From positions 1 through 37,136 of IMG/VR virus record IMGVR_UViG_3300020020_000105: DNA of 37,136 nucleotides. The stretch is one strand, 5' to 3'. Numbering within the stretch: position 1 is the first letter of the stretch; each line of letters begins with the position of its first letter. The position numbers were made by a program, and so were the translations under genes. This DNA is from a virus. This document shows, piece by piece, positions 5,259 to 37,136 of this stretch. The notes below the pieces were generated by a model. The model was not told where the DNA came from. It did not search any database and worked only from the letters and a program-made list of their open reading frames with translations.

Positions 5259-7557
5259 CGGCAATCCAGAGATTGACAAGCAGATAGCGATAACGGAAGG
5301 CGAAATCACTAAGGAGGACGCCGATAAGGTTGTCTACACGCCTATATATAAGGAGTACCCTGAGACTAAGATACCAGTAGCCAAATCAACTGGTGCATTC
5401 TGGCAAGCACGTTGGTCAGAGGGTAAGGCATTCCTTAATAAGGATGCATTGGATCGTTGGGATGAAGCTATCAGCTACTACCAGAACGATCAGAGCGGTA
5501 AGACAAGCAAGCGTAAGAAGTTGAACGAGGCTGCACGTGGTAAGGCTGATGAACAGTTCTATACCACTGAGAATATAGTGTTCTCGAACATTAGTGCGCT
5601 GGTTCCTGCTACGTATGCTAAGAATCCAGACATCGAGATAACAGCTACCAAGGAAACGATGGAAGCTAAGGCTCGTATGTATGAGAAACTCATAGATGTG
5701 TTATTCGCTCGTAAGGGCGCACCGGGAATGAATATCAAACCCAAAGTTAGACGTGCTGTTATCACAACGTTCTTGACTAACATCTGTTACCTACAGCTTG
5801 ATTACGTTCGTAGAGAGGATGCTAGTGAAGCAGCGTTGGAAGAGATCGTACGGCTATCAAAGGAGTTGCAGGAAGCTAAGACGACTTCAGACATTGAGGA
5901 CATCGAAGGACGCTTGCTTGGTCTTGAGCAGAAGGTCAACCTACTTAGTGAGAGTGGTCCCTATATTAAGGTTGTGCAACCCAATATGGTTATCCGTGAT
6001 CCTAACGTACAGGAAGGTGATCTGAGTGGAGACACATATCTTATAGTAGGTGAGTTCATTCGTACTAACTATCTCCGTGCTGTGTATGCAACTAAGGGAG
6101 ATAATGGCGAATACCATTCGATCTACGAACCTACACACGTGTTACCAAACAACAACCGTAACATTTCAGGACATGATGACGAGATTAACCACTTCTCGTT
6201 GCTGTCTGGTGAAGCTGACTTCAACAAGTACGGCTACAAGTCACAAGAGGATTTCGACAGTGCATGTCGTACCCTTGTATGGAAGGTATGGGATAAGACA
6301 ACTCGCCGTGTATTGATGTTTAATGATAAAGATTGGTCATGGCCTATATGGGTATGGGATGATCCATACAAGCTGACTAGGTTCTTCAACATATTCCCGC
6401 TACAGTTCTACACCGATCCCATTGACGTGTATGGTCGTAGCGAAGTTATGTATTATCTTGATCAGCAAGACGAAATCAACATATCTAATATGGAACGTGC
6501 GCGTATGCGTCATTGGGTGATGACTAAGATATTCTATGACAAGAATGTCTTCCCCGATAAGAACAAGTTACAGGAATATCTAAGCAGTAGTGCAGCAGAG
6601 AACATATTCCCTGTAGACTTACCACAAGGTTCCAAGTTACAAGATGCATTGTCCACGTTGGCAGCACCATCTACGCAATTTGAGCAACTATTCGACAATG
6701 CTCGCTTGTTTGAGGCAGTCAATCGTCTGTCGTCGGTTACACCTACACTACAAGCGTCACAATTTAAGACGAACACCACGAATAAGGCGATTGAGAGTTA
6801 CGAAGCTTCAACTCAAACACGACTAGATGAAAAGATCGATGCAATTGAGGACATCTTAGGTGATGTTGCATCAGCTACGTTGGAAATGTGTATCCAGTTC
6901 ATGGATGCCGCAATGGTTACTCGCTTAATTGGTGATAAGCTGGTACAAGAGGGACAATGGATCAATGAAGACGATCCTAAGACGTTCCAACTTGACTATG
7001 GTATGAGCATCATAGGTGGGTCAACGCTTAAGCCAACAAGTAAGGTTAAGAAAGAGCAGGCTATGAACCTTGGACAAGTCCTTGGTCAGTTTGCTCAAGC
7101 TTCGCCTGCTGTTGTACTTATTATGTTGAAAATGCTGGAACGTGCGTTCAATGAGGATGTCGTTATCACCAATGAAGAATGGTCGATGATGATTGATAGC
7201 GTTATGCAGCAAATCACTGGTCAACAAGGTGGCGGTGGTGGACAACAGCAGGGTGGTGATCCAACACAGCAACTTGCACAAGCAGTTATGGTGATAGATC
7301 AGTTTATGCAACAGATACCGCCAGAAGCGGTGCAACAGGTTGGCCAGTTGATATCTAAGGGTGTACCTATTAGTCAAGTCATCCAAGCATTGATGCAACA
7401 GGCCCAACAACAGCAGCAATTAGCAGAACAAGCTGGTGAACAGCAAGGACAACCACCACAAGCTGCACAAGCTGCTGTAGCTAACGGACAACCGCAGCAA
7501 CCACAACAGCAACCAACTCCGCAAAGCCAACAGGCTCCACAACGGCGGATGCAATAA
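5251..7557 (+). CDS. Portal protein
   Basis: This 768-residue protein is assigned as the portal, the dodecameric ring at the packaging vertex that passes DNA in and out and docks the terminase. Support: its size, its place between large terminase and scaffold/coat genes, and portal-like features. The latter are an acidic N-terminus, an alpha/beta core (about 60-560) with a long helical insertion near 190-235, aromatic-rich WSWPIWVWDDPYKLTRFFN near residue 365, and a helical segment rich in Asp/Glu at 510-560. The C-terminal 110 residues are almost pure Gln/Ala/Pro/Gly low complexity. The ATG overlaps the terminase stop by 8 bases. A T7-like or P22-like portal group could not be told apart by eye. 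Confidence 0.85.
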   Translation: MADGNPEIDKQIAITEGEITKEDADKVVYTPIYKEYPETKIPVAKSTGAFWQARWSEGKAFLNKDALDRWDEAISYYQNDQSGKTSKRKKLNEAARGKADEQFYTTENIVFSNISALVPATYAKNPDIEITATKETMEAKARMYEKLIDVLFARKGAPGMNIKPKVRRAVITTFLTNICYLQLDYVRREDASEAALEEIVRLSKELQEAKTTSDIEDIEGRLLGLEQKVNLLSESGPYIKVVQPNMVIRDPNVQEGDLSGDTYLIVGEFIRTNYLRAVYATKGDNGEYHSIYEPTHVLPNNNRNISGHDDEINHFSLLSGEADFNKYGYKSQEDFDSACRTLVWKVWDKTTRRVLMFNDKDWSWPIWVWDDPYKLTRFFNIFPLQFYTDPIDVYGRSEVMYYLDQQDEINISNMERARMRHWVMTKIFYDKNVFPDKNKLQEYLSSSAAENIFPVDLPQGSKLQDALSTLAAPSTQFEQLFDNARLFEAVNRLSSVTPTLQASQFKTNTTNKAIESYEASTQTRLDEKIDAIEDILGDVASATLEMCIQFMDAAMVTRLIGDKLVQEGQWINEDDPKTFQLDYGMSIIGGSTLKPTSKVKKEQAMNLGQVLGQFAQASPAVVLIMLKMLERAFNEDVVITNEEWSMMIDSVMQQITGQQGGGGGQQQGGDPTQQLAQAVMVIDQFMQQIPPEAVQQVGQLISKGVPISQVIQALMQQAQQQQQLAEQAGEQQGQPPQAAQAAVANGQPQQPQQQPTPQSQQAPQRRMQ

Positions 7558-28872: not shown

Positions 28873-29339
28873 TGCCCGGTTCGATTGGTGCATTCGATAC
28901 TATCATCAAGCAAGTGTTGGCTGCTCGTAAGCATGGCGATGAGGACACGTTGCACAAGCGGTTGAAGGATGCTGAACGTAGTATGGAACCAAGGAAGCAT
29001 CCACAACCACAAGTGTTGATGGAGAAGGATAAGCAGGAGTACGACTATCCGTTCACACGTGACTACGATTACGTAAGGAAGCATGGTCAGCCACAGCCAG
29101 CACCTAAGACTAATGAGGATGAGGAAGTACGTCAGCGTAAGCCACAGAACATAGCTGATGAGACACCACGTGATCGTATGATTAAGAAGCAATACGATGT
29201 TGACCATTGGCAGAGGCGTGGTGAGAGGATGACAGAAGAACAGATGTGGGATCACATAGTTGGTTCAGTCATCACTAACCCCGGTAACAAGACCGTCAAT
29301 CGCGGGACAACAAAAAAGGCTACCGACCGAAGCCGATAG
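28872..29339 (+). CDS. Last gene of the rightward block, unknown
   Basis: A 155-residue basic/acidic hydrophilic protein of unknown function. ATG 28872 is preferred over GTG 28869 because GGAGG ends 6 bases before it. The N-terminal third is helical (AFDTIIKQVLAARKHGDEDTL). The centre is Pro/Gln-rich with repeated YDYPFTRDYDYV tyrosines. The C-terminus is basic. The last codons and stop lie inside the stem-loop that terminates the opposing transcript (29316-29343), so the end of this protein is constrained by a regulatory hairpin. Confidence 0.65.
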   Translation: MPGSIGAFDTIIKQVLAARKHGDEDTLHKRLKDAERSMEPRKHPQPQVLMEKDKQEYDYPFTRDYDYVRKHGQPQPAPKTNEDEEVRQRKPQNIADETPRDRMIKKQYDVDHWQRRGERMTEEQMWDHIVGSVITNPGNKTVNRGTTKKATDRSR

Positions 29340-29343
29340 CCTT
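29309..29343 (-). terminator. Intrinsic terminator of the leftward block, UUCG tetraloop
   Basis: On the minus strand AAGGCTATCGGC and GTCGGTAGCCTT form a 12-bp stem with two G-U pairs. It is closed by a C(UUCG)G tetraloop and followed by TTTTTTGTTG. The G-U pairs become mismatches on the plus strand and the plus side has no U-run, so it is built mainly for leftward transcripts. It sits 5 bases after the last leftward gene. Confidence 0.85.
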
Positions 29344-29347
29344 ATTG

Positions 29348-29593: not shown

Positions 29594-32082
29594 TACTTTG
29601 CTGCCTCCAACTCTATCTTCTTGAGGCTTTCCCATGAGTGATAGCCTCGTTCATTTTCATAGCTAACCTTAGTATCAGCAGGGATGATTAGTTCCCTATG
29701 CTTAATGCTACCCTTCTCCCTGTATGGGATAAGCAATGGCATCTCGGCATACTTCTTCATTATGCTAAGACACCGCTGCAATAAGTGCTTAGGTGCCAAG
29801 CATATCAGAGCATCATGGATGTTGAGCAATATTCTTGCGTTTGAAGGCCACTTTGGGTCATCATGTGAAAGATAGATTACCCGGCTAACATGATCTCCAT
29901 TGGTGGACTGTGGCTTAAACGCAACGATAGACTCCAAAGCTTCTGGTGTAAGCCGTTCCAAGATCATAAATCTACGACCCATTGCATTGTAGAGGGAACG
30001 ATTTGCCTTGACTTCCGTTTCTAATTCGTGCCACCATCTTTGCAGTTCAGGATTGGTCCGATGGTAGATACGGTAAGCATCAGAAGCTTCAGAGAGAGTA
30101 AGGCCCGTCGCAGCGGCAAGCCTGTCCGGTCCCATCCGGTAGTTCAGGCCGTGCCTGCAACGCTTTGCGACATACCGGATAGTTGGGATGCCGTTTGCGT
30201 CACGGTCGAAGGTGGGAACTTGATCGTACGGGATGCCAAACATTTCGGAAGCGAGCGCTCTATGAGCATCGTAGTCCCTATTGCGTCTCGCCCTCTCAAA
30301 CTGCTCTATCCAGACGGGGATGTTCGCGTACCACCCGACGAGCCTAGCCTCAGCTTGCGAAAGGTCAAAATAGCCTAACGCATAACCGGGATCAGCGATG
30401 AACATGCCGTACGCACGTTCGGGTTGGTTCTGCAAGTTAGTCCCGCTACCCCATAACGTGCCACTACTAGACAGGCGTCCCGGTGCAGACTGGACGCCTG
30501 TCTGTTTGTACTCACAACGCGCACGATCATCATCATCAATCTCCATCGTTGCATAGGTAGAGTAGAACTTCTGCTCAACGATGAACTCATTGAACGTACG
30601 CAACACCTTACGCTTAGGTTCGGTAGTTGCTGGATGTGCGTACATCCGTGTACGATTGTCTAAGTCTGTACTCACACCACGACCTACTAGCCGTAGCTTA
30701 CTGAATAGCAACTCACTCATGTCACGTGTTGACTTAGGGTTAGGGTTGTAGTCACCATCACCTGTTGCTTCATGCACAGCTTCGAGGAACTTGTTACGCA
30801 ACGCCTGCACATCTATCTCTAACTGCTTGGCTAGTGCATCCTTATACTGAGTGTCAACTAGCACACCGCCAACAGTCATACGTATTAAGTGATGCTGCAA
30901 CCTCATCACATGATCGAAGAAGAACTTGTCTAGTTTTTGGGTGCGCAACTCACTAAGCATTCCAGCAAATGCAGCATGTGTGTTGCAACAATCTTGTCCA
31001 TTGTAATGCCAGTATGAATCAATATCTCCTCCCTCGCGCCATTCACTTCGTTCATTCTTATAAAAAGGTCTGGTGGTATATTGAGTAGTGATGTAGCCAA
31101 GGTTATGCGGCAGTTGTGGGTAAAGGCAGTGGTGCGCAAGCATGGTGTCGAAGTAATGAGGCCGTACGGTAATTCGATCTTTGAAAGCAAGCCAACTGGC
31201 ATCGAACATTCCATTTTGGGCAATGAAGTTATTGTTGCTCGAACAAAAGAAAGCTTGCATTCGTCTCCGTAGCTTGCGTTCATCCTCCAAACTAAAGCGG
31301 TTGCTATCTCTGGTTCTCCAATTAATGCAGACAGCCTCAATGCTATTGTTGCACAGTCCAACACAAGCGGTTTCATTTGAGATGACTTCAATATCATAGG
31401 CAATTGGATGCTCCTCTTTCTCTAGTTTGTCCATCCAATCCATAGCATCACTGTAAGAAGGGTTGACATGAGTATGTACGGGGATGACTGACCATCGACC
31501 ATCGATGACCTTACGTAGCTTAGCTAGATCGTATTTGAATGTGAGTTCTAACTTGGGTTCTCTGATGACTGCGGCAGGGTTGTAAGTACATATGGCTTTA
31601 ATGCCAACATTATTTCCGTGTCCAGCTTCGATAAGTTTCGCGTCAAGAACACTGCCTCGCCAATCAGTAATACCTTCCCGTCCTGTAATAGCTTTGAGCG
31701 CCATGTTACCCAAGACGAGGATATAGCGGAGATTTGGGAGTTGTTGAAGTTCCCATTGAAGTAAGCTGATCCAGTTGTCCAACTCATTACGATTGATAGG
31801 GTGCCGTCTATCGTTACCAAAAGAGACTTGTCGCTTGGCAACATTAGTGATGTAGACTTCATTCCTGTGAATTCCAATGCCACGCAATGCTGCCCAGAGA
31901 GCCGTGCCACTACCGCCCACCAAAGGTTTCTTAGTTTCAACCTCTCTATCTCCCGGTGCTTCTGCGATCACCGCAACTTCCGATAAGAAGCTACCATCGC
32001 AGCCACACTGGAACTCTAAACCGTGACGTTCGATACGATCTGCAAGTTCCAGCTTCATCTGTTCAGTCGTCTGTATCTTCAT
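29593..32082 (-). CDS. Uracil-DNA-glycosylase-like domain fused to family A DNA polymerase
   Basis: The phage replicative polymerase, 829 residues from the ATG at 32082, which overlaps the helicase stop (ATGA). Three parts are visible. Residues about 25-195 are UDG family 4-like: EAPGDREVETKKPLVGGSG (41-59), ILVLGN (121-126) and TYNPAAVI (166-173), where the family usually has His-Pro. Residues about 225-380 are a 3'-5' exonuclease: D229/E231 in AYDIEV, D294 in NGMFDASWL, D364 in YNGQDCCNT. Residues about 400-829 are the polymerase: motif A YFDLSQAEARLVG (571-583), motif B RYVAKRCRHGLNYRMG (636-651), motif C NIHDALI (754-760, HDA rather than HDE). UDG-polymerase fusions are known, for example in SPO1-type phages. 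The catalytic residues for exonuclease and polymerase look intact. Confidence 0.93.
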   Translation of the reverse strand: MKIQTTEQMKLELADRIERHGLEFQCGCDGSFLSEVAVIAEAPGDREVETKKPLVGGSGTALWAALRGIGIHRNEVYITNVAKRQVSFGNDRRHPINRNELDNWISLLQWELQQLPNLRYILVLGNMALKAITGREGITDWRGSVLDAKLIEAGHGNNVGIKAICTYNPAAVIREPKLELTFKYDLAKLRKVIDGRWSVIPVHTHVNPSYSDAMDWMDKLEKEEHPIAYDIEVISNETACVGLCNNSIEAVCINWRTRDSNRFSLEDERKLRRRMQAFFCSSNNNFIAQNGMFDASWLAFKDRITVRPHYFDTMLAHHCLYPQLPHNLGYITTQYTTRPFYKNERSEWREGGDIDSYWHYNGQDCCNTHAAFAGMLSELRTQKLDKFFFDHVMRLQHHLIRMTVGGVLVDTQYKDALAKQLEIDVQALRNKFLEAVHEATGDGDYNPNPKSTRDMSELLFSKLRLVGRGVSTDLDNRTRMYAHPATTEPKRKVLRTFNEFIVEQKFYSTYATMEIDDDDRARCEYKQTGVQSAPGRLSSSGTLWGSGTNLQNQPERAYGMFIADPGYALGYFDLSQAEARLVGWYANIPVWIEQFERARRNRDYDAHRALASEMFGIPYDQVPTFDRDANGIPTIRYVAKRCRHGLNYRMGPDRLAAATGLTLSEASDAYRIYHRTNPELQRWWHELETEVKANRSLYNAMGRRFMILERLTPEALESIVAFKPQSTNGDHVSRVIYLSHDDPKWPSNARILLNIHDALICLAPKHLLQRCLSIMKKYAEMPLLIPYREKGSIKHRELIIPADTKVSYENERGYHSWESLKKIELEAAK

Positions 32083-33455
32083 GCCTTCGGCCCCTTCATT
32101 GAAGCACGTAGGCTTAACTGATCCGTGAAGATCATAGCTGATGTGGTTGCACGTGTTATCGCTGTGTAGAAGTTCTGCCTCGACTGGTTGTACACAGTGG
32201 ACTTGTTCAAAACATAACACGTGTTAGCGAATTCACTACCCTGACACTTGTGAGTTGTCAGTGCATAGGCTAAGTCGATAGCCTTCAGTGGATAGACATC
32301 GATGATCGTATCTTCCTTAGCCCAATACTCATTCATGTGTGCAGGTATCTCCACAGTACGATCACCAAAGTCAACATCCACACTACCATCAGGATATATC
32401 TGAGTGACGATCCCTGTCTCACCGTTAAGCATCTGTTTAGTCTCTGGACATTCAATAAAAGAGTTAAGCACAGGATTGCCATCACGATCCCAAGCATCGA
32501 AGCGTTGAGTATAGTCTCTAAGGTCATAGGTGTTCTCCGTACACACTACCTTATCACCTAAGCCTATGGTTAGTTTGTCCTTGTCCCACTTCTGCCTTGG
32601 TAATGATAGCTTCTGTGCTGGACTAGGATTGAGTAGCAGACGCAGGACTTCATTCAATGCTTTCGTACCCACCCACGAACGTTTTGCAGGAACGATGATT
32701 TGGTTTTCGATTTGTCTGAAATCCACTCCATTAGCATAGCGTTGTGATACGTACTTTCTAAGCATATCGACTGGACGATCTGTAATTCGTACATGAAAAT
32801 CACCCAAGTCGTCATTGATAGTTGGCATTCTCCCCCGTCTGATAAGATCTGCCTCTCGTAAGATGTTTGACCCTTCACCCTGTCTATAAATCGTTTCCAG
32901 ATGGGTGCCGACGAACTCGTTGAGTATCTTTTGGAACGGAGTCTTGTAACGCTGGCCGTTATTAGGTCGGACAAGGTAGGGTTCAATCGGTGCCAACTGA
33001 TACACGTCACCGAATGCGCGAATGCATCCCCCACGTGGGAGTGCTGCAATGAGATTGTTATGGAGTTCGTAATTGACCATTGCATATTCATCGACCAGTA
33101 TCACCTGTTGATCTAATGGGTTCTTACGGCCACGCGCAGGCATCGTAGGATCAAGGGCCTTACCTTTTTCATCACGTGCGCCGGGACGATTGTACTCTAA
33201 CAGTTTGTGGATTGTTGTAGCAGGAATGCCTGTGGCTTCCTTGATGCGACGAGCAGCCTTACCCGTAGGTGCTGCGAATGCAACGTTCTGCATCTTATGA
33301 TAAAGGAGTTGTTCTCTAACTTGCTTGAGGATGGTGGTCTTACCTGAACCAGCAGGACCACTAACACCAACGATACGCTTTCTAATATCAGTAGCTAAAT
33401 CAACAGCATGTTGCTGCTCTACATCTAATTTGATTTGTTTAACTTCAACCTTCAT
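32079..33455 (-). CDS. SF1 RecD/Dda-like DNA helicase
   Basis: A 458-residue ATP-dependent helicase. Motifs: Walker A GPAGSGKTT (33-41), APTGKAARR (motif Ia, 62-70), TIHKLL, Walker B VILVDEYAMV (118-127), GDVYQLAPIEP (motif III), and a C-terminal UvrD-like half with LAYALTTHKCQGSEF (motif V region) and NFYTAITRATTSAMIF (motif VI). It has an excellent AGGAGG site before its ATG and overlaps the polymerase start. With the polymerase it forms the core of the replication machine; no DnaB-type helicase or primase is seen in the window. A stem-loop stands just upstream (33478-33510). The palindrome TAACACGTGTTA lies in this gene at 32215. Confidence 0.92.
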   Translation of the reverse strand: MKVEVKQIKLDVEQQHAVDLATDIRKRIVGVSGPAGSGKTTILKQVREQLLYHKMQNVAFAAPTGKAARRIKEATGIPATTIHKLLEYNRPGARDEKGKALDPTMPARGRKNPLDQQVILVDEYAMVNYELHNNLIAALPRGGCIRAFGDVYQLAPIEPYLVRPNNGQRYKTPFQKILNEFVGTHLETIYRQGEGSNILREADLIRRGRMPTINDDLGDFHVRITDRPVDMLRKYVSQRYANGVDFRQIENQIIVPAKRSWVGTKALNEVLRLLLNPSPAQKLSLPRQKWDKDKLTIGLGDKVVCTENTYDLRDYTQRFDAWDRDGNPVLNSFIECPETKQMLNGETGIVTQIYPDGSVDVDFGDRTVEIPAHMNEYWAKEDTIIDVYPLKAIDLAYALTTHKCQGSEFANTCYVLNKSTVYNQSRQNFYTAITRATTSAMIFTDQLSLRASMKGPKA

Positions 33456-33477
33456 ACCATCCTCCTGAAAAGTAAGC

Positions 33478-33510
33478 GGCTCCCGTACAAGGGGGACAAG
33501 TACGGGAGCC
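33478..33510 (-). promoter_or_regulatory. Perfect 11-bp stem-loop before the helicase gene
   Basis: GGCTCCCGTAC (33478-33488) and GTACGGGAGCC (33500-33510) pair perfectly around an 11-base loop, in the 88-base gap upstream of the helicase. On the leftward transcript it is followed by GCTTACTTTTC, not a U-run, then directly by the AGGAGG site. It may be a partial terminator, a processing site or a block to RNA decay. Confidence 0.5.
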
Positions 33511-33543
33511 TACAAATACATGGGTCTTGCGCAGGTGAGGGGG

Positions 33544-33816
33544 TTAACGACGTTTACGTTTCAACTCATGCATCTGGTTCTTCATGTCACACGCAACTTG
33601 GTAAGCACACCATCTTACGAATGAGGATCGAGACATGCCAAGGAAATGACAGACTTCAAGGATTGTTTCGTTCTCATCTGTTTCAATGCGTAGTGTGATG
33701 TGAGGTCCGTGTTTGTTTACACCAGTCAACCCACGCGGATACACGCTCCGCATGGGCCGAGGGATGGTAACGGTTTCCTTCAATCGCACTACGGAAGGAT
33801 CAACCGCTTTGCGCAT
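33544..33816 (-). CDS. Ribbon-helix-helix-like DNA-binding protein
   Basis: A 90-residue basic protein. The second half fits a ribbon-helix-helix (Arc/CopG-like) fold: strand HITLRIETDEN (about 39-49), helix ETILEVCHFLG, turn MSRSS, helix FVRWCAYQVACDM, then a basic tail HELKRKRR. Such proteins bind palindromic operators as dimers, so it is a natural candidate reader of the TGTG-N-CACA palindromes in this genome; that link is inference. The start is 5 bases after the upstream stop with no strong ribosome site, so it may be translated by coupling. Confidence 0.6.
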   Translation of the reverse strand: MRKAVDPSVVRLKETVTIPRPMRSVYPRGLTGVNKHGPHITLRIETDENETILEVCHFLGMSRSSFVRWCAYQVACDMKNQMHELKRKRR

Positions 33817-33821
33817 GATAA

Positions 33822-34088
33822 TTACTTAATCAGGAAATGCTGATACTTCTTTTCCACCTGACCAGAAGTCTGCTTAAGGACTTCGTTAGCGTCACGTGTA
33901 GCAGAATGGATTTCCAGATCACCATCCTCACCCACAGAGTAGATAAGGTATGCGTCCTTGGGTGCGCGCTGCAACTCCAGACGTGCCTCATACTTCTCCC
34001 TCTCTTCAGGTGACAGGGTGTTGACATCGATCCTGCTGCGTCTCTTACCGGCCATCTTGACTATCTCCATTTTAGGTTTACTTGCCAT
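33822..34088 (-). CDS. Small unknown basic/acidic protein
   Basis: An 88-residue protein from the ATG at 34088, which has a strong AAGGAGGG site 5 bases upstream; the longer open frame before it crosses the intergenic hairpin and is ignored. It begins with a basic N-terminus (MASKPKMEIVKMAGKRRSRID), then helix SPEEREKYEARLELQRAP. Strands with AYLIYSVGEDGDLEIHSAT and a C-terminal helix follow. The family is not recognised. The strong ribosome site and the dedicated upstream hairpin with palindrome suggest high or regulated expression early in infection. Confidence 0.7.
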   Translation of the reverse strand: MASKPKMEIVKMAGKRRSRIDVNTLSPEEREKYEARLELQRAPKDAYLIYSVGEDGDLEIHSATRDANEVLKQTSGQVEKKYQHFLIK

Positions 34089-34114
34089 TGGACCCTCCTT
34101 TGGGGTACAAGTCA

Positions 34115-34125
34115 TTGTGTCACAA
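34115..34125. promoter_or_regulatory. TTGTG-T-CACAA palindrome
   Basis: An 11-bp dyad with the TGTG-N-CACA core shared with the left-region sites. On the leftward transcript it follows immediately after the stem-loop at 34125-34158, and it lies 27 bases before the start codon of the 88-residue gene. Confidence 0.45.
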
Positions 34126-34158
34126 GGGGTCACCAATAGCAACACATTGATGACCCCT
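34125..34158 (-). promoter_or_regulatory. 13-bp stem-loop between SSB-like gene and the 88-residue gene
   Basis: Arms 34125-34137 and 34146-34158 pair over 13 positions with an 8-base loop. One position is a C/A mismatch on the plus strand but a G-U pair on the minus strand, so the hairpin forms best in the leftward RNA. No U-run follows. It may process or stabilise the mRNA or act as a partial terminator. Confidence 0.55.
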
Positions 34159-34170
34159 CTATGAGAATTA

Positions 34171-34593
34171 TTACGCTGCGGATACCTTACGCACACGCTC
34201 TTGAGGCACACCCTCGAACTCGTCGTTACTAATAGTAACGATAGCCGTCTTGCCAATCCAATCATTGACATTGATTGAGTTGCCAAGTGGTGCGCCGATT
34301 GCTTCAAGGAACTTACGCATACGGAACTTCGCTGCGCGGTCTGCTTCTGCACCTACGTAGTGGCGAACTACTTTACCATCTGCGTAGCTTTCAGCATCAG
34401 CATAGTCAGCCGGGAAATCTTCCGGCTTGATGGTGAACTGTACTTCAACACGCTGCTTACCAGAAGTCTGTGAGATACCAACGGTAGCCTGCGTAATCTG
34501 TGCAGGATAGTCGCTAGGTGGTAGTGCAGCGGGTGCCTCTGCTTGAGACAAGTCATCAGTGTAATCGATAATGCTGCTCAGTTCTTCAGCCAT
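34171..34593 (-). CDS. DUF669-like single-stranded DNA-binding protein
   Basis: A 140-residue protein from the ATG at 34593 (AGAGGTAG about 9 bases upstream). The pattern resembles DUF669/SSB-like phage proteins that work with Sak4/RecA-like ATPases: an acidic N-terminus, PPSDYPAQITQATVGISQ, strand RVEVQFTI, an insertion, HYVGAEADRAAKFRMRKFLEAIGAP, then NDWIGKTAIVTISNDEFEGVPQERV. It would coat ssDNA during replication and recombination. Position close to the ATPase gene supports this. It differs from the E. coli SSB type in having no acidic C-terminal tip. Confidence 0.7.
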   Translation of the reverse strand: MAEELSSIIDYTDDLSQAEAPAALPPSDYPAQITQATVGISQTSGKQRVEVQFTIKPEDFPADYADAESYADGKVVRHYVGAEADRAAKFRMRKFLEAIGAPLGNSINVNDWIGKTAIVTISNDEFEGVPQERVRKVSAA

Positions 34594-34628
34594 AGTAGCT
34601 ACCTCTATTTGGGGTTTTGCGGGTCCAG

Positions 34629-34637
34629 TGTGACACA
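34629..34637. promoter_or_regulatory. TGTG-A-CACA palindrome before the SSB-like gene
   Basis: A 9-bp dyad with the same core as the 107-121 site. On the leftward transcript it comes 3 bases after the stem-loop at 34641-34676 and 35 bases before the SSB-like start. Confidence 0.45.
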
Positions 34638-34640
34638 TAA

Positions 34641-34676
34641 CCACCCACCATACAACCCGCTACATTTGGTGGGTGG
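34641..34676 (-). promoter_or_regulatory. Perfect 10-bp stem-loop before the SSB-like gene
   Basis: CCACCCACCA (34641-34650) pairs with TGGTGGGTGG (34667-34676) around a 16-base loop. The structure lies between the coiled-coil gene and the SSB-like gene, and no U-run follows on the minus strand. Same arrangement as the 34125-34158 element: hairpin, then TGTG-N-CACA, then a CCCCAAA word, then the ribosome site. Confidence 0.5.
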
Positions 34677-34703
34677 GTCTTGAAGAACTACTATAGGTAG
34701 GGA

Positions 34704-35009
34704 TTACTTAATACGTGTTAAGCCTTCCAACGCACCCTTCATGGTATCAATAACTCTATTCAAGTCAGTGATACGTTGAGATATAGTAGTCCTTATCTCG
34801 TCTGCTTCTGCTATCTCACGCTCGAAGCCAGCAATGATACGCTGTGCGTTCACACGCATACTACGTGATGCACGATCAGTGTCTTTGTTAGTCGCAGCTT
34901 CGAGAGGCGTCATTGAAGTTACAGGTTTGGTATTACGTTCCTCTTCCATTGCTGCTTCAATGTCCTGCTCTAATCCAGCAAGCCGCATCTTAATCGGTTC
35001 TGGTTGCAT
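34704..35009 (-). CDS. Small coiled-coil protein
   Basis: A 101-residue protein without a known family, mostly helical with heptad-like spacing (MRLAGLEQDIEAAMEEE and ISQRITDLNRVIDTMKGALEGL). The ATG at 35009 is preferred, because GAAGGA lies 8 bases before it; an ATG at 35018 is in the same frame. The start overlaps the end of the upstream ATPase gene. It probably forms a dimer or a bundle, maybe with the ATPase or the SSB-like protein. The last codons carry a near copy (TAATACGTGTTA) of the dispersed 12-bp palindrome. Confidence 0.65.
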   Translation of the reverse strand: MQPEPIKMRLAGLEQDIEAAMEEERNTKPVTSMTPLEAATNKDTDRASRSMRVNAQRIIAGFEREIAEADEIRTTISQRITDLNRVIDTMKGALEGLTRIK

Positions 35010-35847
35010 TAACTTCATCCTTCATCTTGTCATACTCAGGCGTACCGGGAAGCGGAATCTTACGAAACTTGTTTAGCTTCCAGATCTCATACATCTGAGC
35101 GAGTGTCATGTTGTTTGGGTTTGTCCAATCATCAGGGTTAAACTTCCATGTGAACCTATCTCCTTTCATGGTTGTGAACATGCGTGTCTTGACGGGTGTG
35201 TAGAAGCCATTGGATGATATGATGATGTCTTTCTTCTTACCATCTTGATACATGACTATGCATTCATTGACATTGGATGGTACTTTGTAAACTAGCTGTC
35301 CACCTAGTGCGAGTGTGTGTTGATAGCTTTGGTCTTTAGCGTTAACTTTGGTTTGTTCGTGTGCGAGTAGGCATAGGTGTTTCTTCTCAGCACCAGTAAT
35401 ATTGAGTACAAGCCTAACCAAATGATGCATGAGATTGTTACGCGTTAGATACACTGACTGTGATGGACGTTCGATGCTAGCAGGCACAGAGTCTTTCGAT
35501 GCCTTACTGATACCTGCATCAAAGGTACGATCCTCAATGGAAGATAAGCTATCAATGATAATACTATCGTATTCCTTGATAGCTGACTTGATACCAAGAG
35601 GATCAGTACCGTGGAACTGTTTAGTTATCTCATGTGTTGTTCCACTTAGATCAAACACATCCAAGTTGGGCACACCGATTACGCTAGTGTGCCCATCAGG
35701 ATCAAAATTGATGAGCGCTTTACGTCCCGGCATCGTGGCTGCAAAGGTAGTCTTACCAACTCCCGGCTGGCCCCATAACAGTATACTTAGTCTAGCTATA
35801 GCATCTGTTGACTCGACACGCTCAGTCCCACCAATCTTGACTATCAT
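34990..35847 (-). CDS. RecA-fold ATPase, Sak4-like recombination protein
   Basis: A 285-residue P-loop ATPase: Walker A GQPGVGKTT (26-34), Walker B YDSIIIDSLSS (93-103), a polar glutamine-type strand HLCLLAHEQTKVNA, and C-terminal segments GFYTPVKTRMFTTM. The compact RecA core and its pairing with a DUF669-like ssDNA-binding protein match the Sak4-type recombinases of phages, which promote strand annealing or exchange; the annotation AAA_24 is equivalent. It starts in an ATGA overlap with the upstream 60-residue gene. Roles could be recombination-dependent replication or repair. Confidence 0.8.
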   Translation of the reverse strand: MIVKIGGTERVESTDAIARLSILLWGQPGVGKTTFAATMPGRKALINFDPDGHTSVIGVPNLDVFDLSGTTHEITKQFHGTDPLGIKSAIKEYDSIIIDSLSSIEDRTFDAGISKASKDSVPASIERPSQSVYLTRNNLMHHLVRLVLNITGAEKKHLCLLAHEQTKVNAKDQSYQHTLALGGQLVYKVPSNVNECIVMYQDGKKKDIIISSNGFYTPVKTRMFTTMKGDRFTWKFNPDDWTNPNNMTLAQMYEIWKLNKFRKIPLPGTPEYDKMKDEVNATRTD

Positions 35848-36026
35848 TTCATTTTCCTCGTATAAATTACCTCTACTGGTTTCTGCTCCAGTAGAGGCAT
35901 GTTATATACAGTGACTTCCTTGTGAGCATTCAACGCTATTAGTAACTCGTGATAGTTACAGTCAGGTTGATCCGCAATGCTAAGATCAAGCGGCTGGTGG
36001 TGTCTCTTCTCCTTCACCTTCCGCAT
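35844..36026 (-). CDS. Small unknown protein, overlaps two neighbours
   Basis: A 60-residue protein of unknown function. The start codon lies inside the Glu-rich 3' end of the upstream acidic gene, whose GAA/GAG codons provide a GGAAGAAGAAG ribosome site in a different frame. Its stop overlaps the ATPase start (ATGA), which supports real translation. The sequence has a basic histidine-containing head (RKVKEKRHHQP), then LLIALNAHKEVTVYNMP and EVIYTRKMK. It may have a beta-rich regulator-like fold, but no match is recognised. Confidence 0.55.
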   Translation of the reverse strand: MRKVKEKRHHQPLDLSIADQPDCNYHELLIALNAHKEVTVYNMPLLEQKPVEVIYTRKMK

Positions 36027-36180
36027 CTTCTTCTTCTTCCAAGTTAGTATGTTCCGTTGCCTCCACTTCCTCTTCCTTAATCAACACTTCAATTACTTGG
36101 CGTATCTCATCTACGACATCATCATCGAGATCATTGGTGTCGATGATTTCTTCCAGCATTACGACTACACGTTTATTCAT
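35986..36180 (-). CDS. Small, strongly acidic protein
   Basis: A 64-residue protein from the ATG at 36180, which overlaps the nuclease stop (ATGAATAA); upstream in-frame ATGs at 36195 and 36204 also lack a good ribosome site. It starts NKRVVVMLEEII and then is almost all acidic (DTNDLDDDVVDEI, NLEEEEDAEGEGEETPP), with close to half Asp/Glu and very few basic residues. Such a charge profile is seen in DNA-mimic and anti-defence proteins and in partners of basic nucleases. No family is recognised, so this is only a hint. Confidence 0.55.
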   Translation of the reverse strand: MNKRVVVMLEEIIDTNDLDDDVVDEIRQVIEVLIKEEEVEATEHTNLEEEEDAEGEGEETPPAA

Positions 36181-37132
36181 CTTGGACTGTCCCATATTTG
36201 TCATGGATTGGCGACCATTCGTCAATTCCCATGTCGGCTATCATTTCTACTCTATCACTCGGAGGCACTGCGCAGAAAGGGATAAACATACACGGTGAGA
36301 AGTAACGATTACAACTGATGGTGTACTTAGGTGCATGTACAACGTCATCCTTGTATTGCTCGTAGATATCAGCGGTATGCAAGAACCAATCAAACCATTC
36401 CTCTAATTGGAATGAATATCTATTCACTACAACACGTGACAACCCACCTAATGAGTAGGTCTTTGGCATTGGTAATGCTGTGCCAAGTATTATAGCTTGA
36501 TCTAACTCGATGTTGAGCATCGCAGCTAATGCAATCATGTAGCCGGTGACTTGGTGCGATGTCTCGAAGCTTAGTTCCCATGCGTCGTTAAGGCGGGATG
36601 ATGTCTTATTCTCGTGAAGGCGTATCTGATCCTTTGCCCTGCTGGAGTAATGTAAGCCATCAGCGCGTCCAATATAGCGATACACTCGTGAAGTTCCGCC
36701 TTCAAATCCGAAAGTGATCGTAACGTCGATTGGTATTTCAATTCCCACAAAGTCACCAATGATAATCGGTAGTTCATCACGCCAATCAAAACGATCCATG
36801 TACGCAAGACACATCTCCTCTATGTTGGTGATGCTTCTTCGTCTGTCTGTAGGGCTATCGTAAAAACCACTGTTATAAAGTGCTGCGAGGCTGAATTGGT
36901 GGGATCGTGTGCGATAATCTTCTCTAGTATTAACCGCTCCAAGCATTTCGTTAAGTCTTTCTTCACCGAAAAGATGGTATCCTGTCCTAAGAAAGACTCC
37001 TCTAATTTCATCACTGTTCGCATTGTAGAATGAGGAACCGAACTCGTTAAGACAATAGAGTCGATGTGCGGAGAAAACTTCATGTGCTGCGCCTCCTGCT
37101 TCAAGCGCCATCTTGCGACCTGTTCCAGACAT
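36173..37132 (-). CDS. RecB/Cas4-like PD-(D/E)XK nuclease, possibly incomplete at the window edge
   Basis: 319 residues are visible. Nuclease motifs: GGAAHEVFSAH (13-23; H17), GRADGL (155-160; D158), ENK (174-176), and QVTGY (194-198), the QxxxY motif of RecB/Cas4 relatives. Three cysteines near the C-terminus (C274, C281, C287) are spaced like an iron-sulphur cluster that in Cas4/AddB needs a fourth cysteine from the N-terminus. The frame meets the window end 4 bases before the ATG, so the true start may be further upstream. It would process DNA ends for recombination together with the Sak4-like ATPase. Its stop overlaps the acidic gene. Confidence 0.75.
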   Translation of the reverse strand: MSGTGRKMALEAGGAAHEVFSAHRLYCLNEFGSSFYNANSDEIRGVFLRTGYHLFGEERLNEMLGAVNTREDYRTRSHQFSLAALYNSGFYDSPTDRRRSITNIEEMCLAYMDRFDWRDELPIIIGDFVGIEIPIDVTITFGFEGGTSRVYRYIGRADGLHYSSRAKDQIRLHENKTSSRLNDAWELSFETSHQVTGYMIALAAMLNIELDQAIILGTALPMPKTYSLGGLSRVVVNRYSFQLEEWFDWFLHTADIYEQYKDDVVHAPKYTISCNRYFSPCMFIPFCAVPPSDRVEMIADMGIDEWSPIHDKYGTVQDE

Positions 37133-37136
37133 TGTT

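Follow-up and report, generated by a model that had tools for sequence, protein, structure and literature searches.

What kind of control element precedes the SSB gene in the replication module of this virus? The window analysed here comprises the 37,136 bases of an IMG/VR virus record, and its replication module lies on the minus strand. The initial annotation had described, before both the SSB gene and the gene following it, a repeated cassette consisting of a hairpin, a TGTG-N-CACA dyad, the word CCCCAAA and a ribosome site. Our comparison with related phages indicates that the true unit before the SSB gene is larger than this cassette, extending up to 34700 and including a predicted pseudoknot and a twin operator-like site.

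The replication module and its relatives

From its upstream to its downstream end, the module contains the following genes:

Minus strand, furthest upstream: gene whose versions in relatives include a PD-(D/E)XK-type nuclease
34990-35847, minus strand: Sak4-type AAA recombinase (PHROG 124 and Pfam AAA_24)
Minus strand, between the Sak4-type recombinase and SSB genes: gene encoding 104 aa
34171..34593, minus strand: SSB gene (OB-fold, DUF669-like; PHROG 378)
33822-34088, minus strand: gene encoding 88 aa, next after the SSB gene
33544-33816, minus strand: regulator-like gene encoding 90 aa
Minus strand, downstream end: Dda/RecD-like helicase, then PolA-type DNA polymerase

A DUF669 match was obtained for 33 of the 35 SSB family members. 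The best PDB match of the AlphaFold2 model of the SSB (pLDDT 88) was PrgE (E = 1.8e-6), and the second was the DNA-bound PrgE structure.

A polymerase query followed by a four-polymerase alignment yielded 80 viral contigs, and the gene order of the module is kept in most of the approximately 80 relatives where the contig is long enough. The SSB used as a single-protein query against viral contigs detected no relatives, and the alignment of all 35 SSB family members was too diverse for searching; a nine-member subset was used, which yielded 80 further SSB loci, partly on contigs already found. Seventy SSB leaders, nearly all from IMG/VR contigs, were anchored via the loop motif of the element; identical and near-identical leaders were thinned, and some close relatives are still included in this set. 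No DNA similarity was detected between positions 30000-37136 of the window and named phages, and tblastn with the SSB of one relative gave no match in named phages. In the distant named phages MW202489 and PP438425, inspection by eye revealed no clear equivalent of the SSB-leader element. The searches made here thus found no named member of the phage group carrying the element. As judged from the leaders compared, the control region is common to dozens of related phages.

Predicted pseudoknot and promoter, and twin palindromes, before the SSB gene

The control region before the SSB gene (copy 1) spans 34593-34700 on the minus strand and contains the following features:

34691..34700, minus strand: distal palindrome of operator-like form, CTACCTATAG (CTA-N4-TAG), located 31 bp upstream from its proximal counterpart
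34667..34676, minus strand: 5' arm of hairpin P2, CCACCCACCA, with compensatory changes in relatives
34660..34669, minus strand: operator-like site CCAAATGTAG, the proximal one, directly adjoining the -35 region
34654..34660, minus strand: pseudoknot loop strand PK5, GCGGGTT, pairing with GACCCGC and covarying across 70 loci
34650..34655, minus strand: -35-like hexamer TTGTAT; in 20 of 38 relatives, TTG and TANNNT are 16 or 17 nt apart
34641..34650, minus strand: 3' arm of hairpin P2, TGGTGGGTGG, with compensatory changes in relatives
34627..34635, minus strand: extended -10-like TGT-CACACT, overlapping TGTG-N-CACA, with a 17-nt spacer from the -35
34619..34625, minus strand: pseudoknot downstream strand PK3, GACCCGC, covarying and located at the predicted start site
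34602..34606, minus strand: Shine-Dalgarno sequence AGAGG of the SSB gene, recognised by its sequence

PK5, in the loop of P2, is complementary to PK3, shortly before the ribosome site, and the predicted H-type pseudoknot lies approximately 12 nt before the Shine-Dalgarno sequence. In relatives, the two strands are composed of other letters (GTGGCTT/AAGCCAC, GCGGC/GCCGC, GTAGCT/AGCTAC, GGGGCTG/CAGTTCC, GGGGCTT/AGGCCTC and GCAGAAGGT/ACCTTCTGC). The PK5/PK3 pairing score of the 70 loci was 1112, compared with 872 ± 23 when partners were permuted between loci at fixed offsets; with one representative per distinct combination (41 combinations), the score was 631 compared with 498 ± 18. It was by the loop motif that the loci had been anchored, and the first pairing test included a few loop strands picked by eye. 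The pseudoknot helix comprises at least 5 bp in 66 of the 70 loci, and the distance from PK5 to PK3 is nearly constant (34-38 nt in the 70 loci).

Two groups of leaders were aligned. In group A (16 sequences), 87.5% of the cells are paired, with 21 double changes versus 5.7 ± 1.9, and in group B (30 sequences) the corresponding values are 86.6% and 44 versus 15.5 ± 3.1. Because the pseudoknot is nearly invariant within group B, its covariation stems from differences between the groups and within group A, where its helix shows two-sided changes (columns UA/CG and GC/AU). L005 is the nearest relative of the window, and the P2 arms of the two are wholly different. The suggestion in the initial annotation that selection acts on structure is thus borne out by compensatory changes among relatives.

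A covariance search had been proposed as a check. In 1.03 Mb of sequence, all strong matches of the two models lie in SSB leaders, one per phage, and the few matches elsewhere have E > 0.05. The element before the SSB gene is the top match of the window (group A model, E = 0.014). Because this value is modest, the main grounds for its membership are its position, the pseudoknot, the spacing of the promoter and the twin sites, taken together. None of the Rfam 15 covariance models matches the element.

Some leaders depart from this arrangement. In L010, a tRNA-Gln gene (5302-5375) fills the gap before the SSB gene where relatives have the pseudoknot element, and a clear element is absent. The SSB leaders of L014-L023 and L050 contain the loop motif GGCTTGACA and a perfect -35 hexamer; either their P2 is weak or another hairpin takes its place, and one strand is able to pair with two downstream stretches.

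The pseudoknot loop strand terminates in TTG, which is also the start of the -35 hexamer. Of 38 loci, 12 have TANNNT 16 nt after TTGNNN and 8 have it 17 nt after, and no other spacing accounts for more than 4 loci; the -10 box of group B is CTATAAT, with two invariant letters. On the basis of this spacing across the family, copy 1 has a predicted sigma70-type promoter, which would start transcription near 34619, at PK3. Since TTGTAT and CACACT are separated by 17 nt in the window, with TG one base before the latter, the best reading of the TGTG-N-CACA word is that of an extended -10 box, correctly spaced from the TTG of the -35 in both copies. A strict promoter scan of 33400-36100 did not list the TTGTAT-17-CACACT pair, which is not of consensus grade; the promoter reading therefore rests on the family, because the hexamers of the window itself are weak.

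The two CTA-N4-TAG sites are also a property of the family. At the proximal site, C is the first letter in 67 and A the third in 61 of the 70 loci, and CTA and TAG are the commonest halves. An exact distal copy is present in 41 of the 70 loci (2 expected), 31 or 32 bp from the proximal site in 38 of these 41. Pairs of CTA-N4-TAG up to 80 bp apart in 1.63 Mb of sequence show a sole peak, at 31 and 32, and all pairs in it are located at SSB genes except for one in L065. In the window, the pair in the SSB leader is the best such twin. The twin palindromes have an operator-like layout, in tandem and in helical phase, and a DNA-binding dimer is suggested because the sites are palindromic and three helical turns apart. 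The versions of the 90-aa gene in relatives show weak NikA-like (ribbon-helix-helix) matches under the curated cut-off, and the gene of the window (33544-33816) shows helix-turn-helix matches at sub-threshold level only. This small gene, two places downstream of the SSB gene, is a candidate for the regulator acting at the twin sites. The proposal in the initial annotation of a promoter-operator therefore suits the first copy, which combines the family promoter spacing with twin palindromes.

The additional pair in L065 (2412-2470; 32 bp) lies with TTGACA-17-TATAAA before an unknown gene, which suggests a small regulon.

The second copy and other repeats

The second copy, after the SSB gene, contains the following features:

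34124..34159, minus strand: intercistronic hairpin of 15 bp including G-U pairs, with loop TGTTGC and no U-run
34137..34142, minus strand: -35-like TTGCTA, shared between the loop of this hairpin and its 3' arm, as part of a promoter-like pair of the kind seen in relatives
34114..34122, minus strand: extended -10-like TGA-CACAAT, with a 17-nt spacer

The order of elements given in the initial annotation is present at both sites on the minus strand. In copy 1, the stem CCACCCACCA/TGGTGGGTGG, without a U-run, is followed by TGTGTCACA (34637-34629), CCCCAAA (34614-34608), the Shine-Dalgarno sequence AGAGG and ATG (34593). In copy 2, the stem (34159-34145/34138-34124) is followed by TGTGACACA (34124-34116), CCCCAAA (34105-34099), the Shine-Dalgarno sequence AGGAGG and ATG (34088). 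The folding-energy z-scores are -1.98 for copy 1 and -2.89 for copy 2. However, this word order is real in the window yet unconserved, because the leaders of relatives lack both words: among the 69 other SSB leaders, TGTG-N-CACA occurs in none and CCCCAAA in one. The word TGTGNCACA occurs 5 times in the window (1.7 expected), which is weak evidence by itself because 4 of 100 shuffles reach 5. What is conserved in relatives is the hairpins, together with features beyond those initially annotated, and the cassette as such does not recur. Nor are the two copies one element, since the copy-1 models match strongly only at the SSB leader and copy 2 is a different intercistronic hairpin. We found no evidence in favour of the mRNA processing that had been offered as the other possible function.

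The copy 2 pair TTGCTA-17-CACAAT carries TG as in copy 1, and its hairpin stem contains G-U pairs. Of 61 distinct relatives, 48 have between the SSB gene and the next gene a stretch that folds with z < -2 and whose hairpin arms are unrelated; TTGN3-16/17-[TC]AN3T occurs after the SSB gene in 21 of the 61 (5 expected). At this position, L069, L097 and L127 have true terminators with U-runs. In the window, copy 2 is not an intrinsic terminator, as only one U is present in the eight bases after the stem, and a strict scan of 33400-36100 detected no terminator on the minus strand. From these comparisons, copy 2 is read as a separate boundary hairpin with the promoter of the next gene nested inside, and it probably limits read-through or stabilises the end of the SSB mRNA. 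A pseudoknot in copy 2 (TGTGT/ACACA) was considered and rejected; it would comprise only 5 bp, and the group A loops are approximately 6 nt long.

Several other repeats were observed in the window. The long non-coding start contains a 15-bp palindrome, CTATGTGACACATAG, at 107-121, and near copies of TGTGNCACA are present at 602-610 (TGTGTTACA) and 632-640 (CGTGACACA); the TGTG-N-CACA core of both -10 regions is also present in these three sequences, which may be the sites of another regulator. Directly upstream of the start of the Sak4 recombinase gene lies a 19-nt, 84% inverted repeat (35861-35906; core CCTCTACTGG/CCAGTAGAGG). At the convergent end of two gene blocks (29313-29345), AAAAAAGGCTA...TAGCCTTATT resembles a two-way terminator, and a perfect 12-bp inverted repeat with an 11-nt loop is located within the DNA polymerase gene (30469-30503).

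Level of action, proposed control and comparison with known systems

The conserved pairing before the SSB gene could reflect DNA only, with P2 and PK5/PK3 being inverted-repeat regulator sites around the promoter and RNA structure being irrelevant. Both the geometry of the promoter and the twin palindromes clearly belong to the DNA level, the PK3-PK5 distance of 34-38 nt follows the promoter and not the length of P2, and the predicted start falls at PK3. However, L045, L048 and L063 have SSBs that are 98-99% identical and an unchanged distal operator core, and the P2 of L045 differs from that of L048 and from that of L063 by two compensated pairs each time. P2 is therefore unlikely to be the operator of the same regulator, and the complete unlikeness of the P2 arms of the window and L005 also argues against DNA-level sites. 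Furthermore, G:T pairs exceed A:C pairs in both P2 (31 versus 14, p = 0.014) and the pseudoknot (66 versus 2, p = 6e-6) when tested against slid registers, although these p-values are optimistic because the sequences are related. Such an excess is not predicted by DNA symmetry and points to gene-sense RNA. When the pseudoknot register was set by Watson-Crick pairs only, the bias was weaker, with counts of 25 and 7 compared with 22 and 13 expected from shuffling; part of the G:T excess reflects lineage. As far as these comparisons reach, an RNA layer is clearly ahead of the DNA-only explanation, if not beyond doubt, and we regard the latter as unlikely while still giving it some weight.

Ordinary intercistronic hairpins, serving as terminators or stabilisers of mRNA ends and overlapping promoters by chance, would suit copy 2, given its strong folding in 48 of 61 relatives and the U-runs in three of them. 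Copy 1 fits this description poorly, since it has no U-run, a covarying pseudoknot strand, a conserved loop sequence and twin sites, and we consider this explanation improbable. A switch of the T4 e/soc/49 type, in which an upstream strand in read-through mRNA hides the SSB start site, gains some credit from the window itself, where the minimum-energy fold pairs approximately 34697-34682 with the Shine-Dalgarno sequence and AUG and the accessibility of the start site is 0.34 in the long RNA versus 0.51. Over the 70 loci, however, the summed duplex energy (-678) does not differ in any useful way from that of permuted partners (-676) and accessibility is reduced in just 40. Start-site occlusion was accordingly rejected as a conserved feature, and a switch of this type is very unlikely. 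The joint occurrence of an SSB gene, a hairpin and promoter boxes also recalls the single-strand DNA promoter Frpo, by which ssb of plasmid F is driven from folded single-stranded DNA. Frpo-type folding requires the template strand, whereas the wobble pairs tolerated here point, indirectly, to the gene-sense strand and the -10 lies mostly outside the stems, so that such a promoter is hardly to be expected.

We lean, with reserve, towards dual control of the SSB gene, in which a regulated promoter is nested in the pseudoknot of a read-through mRNA, copy 2 being a hairpin in its own right. What the comparison of sequences shows is the spacing of the promoter, the two sites, the conservation of the pairing and the restriction to SSB genes; that a regulator acts, that read-through RNA exists and that translation is affected are inferences. 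At the DNA level, the sigma70-type promoter would start an SSB mRNA near 34619, governed by a dimeric regulator at the two CTA-N4-TAG sites, three turns apart and beside the -35. At the RNA level, read-through RNA from the upstream recombinase operon would span the region and fold into the H-type pseudoknot. Because PK3 lies at the predicted start, the pseudoknot would form only in RNA from upstream; the mRNA from the SSB promoter would begin at PK3 and lack it, and the RNA layer therefore depends on read-through transcription. The most likely role of the pseudoknot is to govern how SSB is translated when the mRNA comes from read-through. This may occur by autogenous binding of SSB to the leader, which is the leading form because T4 gp32 represses its own mRNA in this manner, or weak translation of read-through mRNA may leave the SSB level to the regulated promoter. 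Copy 2, with its own hairpin and promoter, would divide the SSB gene from the next gene. With promoter, twin operator and pseudoknot within approximately 110 bp, the region would be a compact two-level switch testable with reporters.

More tentatively, and with somewhat less confidence than in dual control itself, we propose that these leaders belong to an unrecorded family, widespread in non-T4 phages, whose members carry a pseudoknot with the promoter nested in it; read-through and own-promoter mRNAs would then be under different translation rules, and SSB would possibly regulate itself. Within the literature covered, which included few subscription papers, we found no published SSB-leader motif outside T4. 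If such a family exists, it would represent a second, independent origin of pseudoknot control of SSB; a covarying pseudoknot leader on an unrelated SSB family in dozens of uncultured phages would show that this solution arose again.

Among the closest known systems is that of T4, in which gp32 uses a pseudoknot in the leader of its own mRNA to repress it (PMC535899, PMC3014915). The gene 32 operator of T4, T2 and RB69 resembles the element in being an H-type pseudoknot in a phage SSB leader, upstream of the ribosome site (PMC535899, PMC3014915). In our family, a pseudoknot in the SSB leader is supported by comparative pairing, and the T4-type UUAAA/UAAA tract is rare (UUAAA in 1 and at least two UAAA in 4 of 70 leaders). 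The SSB belongs to another family, the DUF669/PrgE-like proteins, outside which T4 gp32 falls. Moreover, the element differs from the gene 32 operator in its longer P2 stem, in containing a promoter and twin operator, and in that the predicted own-promoter mRNA would lack the pseudoknot. It is therefore likely that the element works like the T4 gene 32 leader without being a member of that class. The T4 e, soc, 49 and I-TevI leaders are similar in that the leader would be structured differently in transcripts reading through from upstream and in those from the gene's own promoter (PMC3014915), but no conserved start-site sequestration is seen here. Frpo of F-type plasmids is likewise a structured promoter, of the single-strand type, that serves an ssb gene (PMC9849209, PMC11541004); the element departs from it both in the strand on which the structure forms and in where the -10 lies. 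Phage HK620 is reported to have Sak4 with a cognate DUF669-type SSB (PMC5928155), and the same pairing of a Sak4-type recombinase with an SSB is seen here. This parallel concerns the proteins and not the leader. At some sigma70 promoters, dimeric proteins such as ribbon-helix-helix repressors bind operators arranged in tandem. The element resembles these in its palindromic sites in helical phase beside the -35, and the weakly NikA-like (ribbon-helix-helix) gene in the module of relatives provides a candidate regulator. What is new here is the combination of a predicted pseudoknotted SSB leader with a nested tandem-operator promoter.
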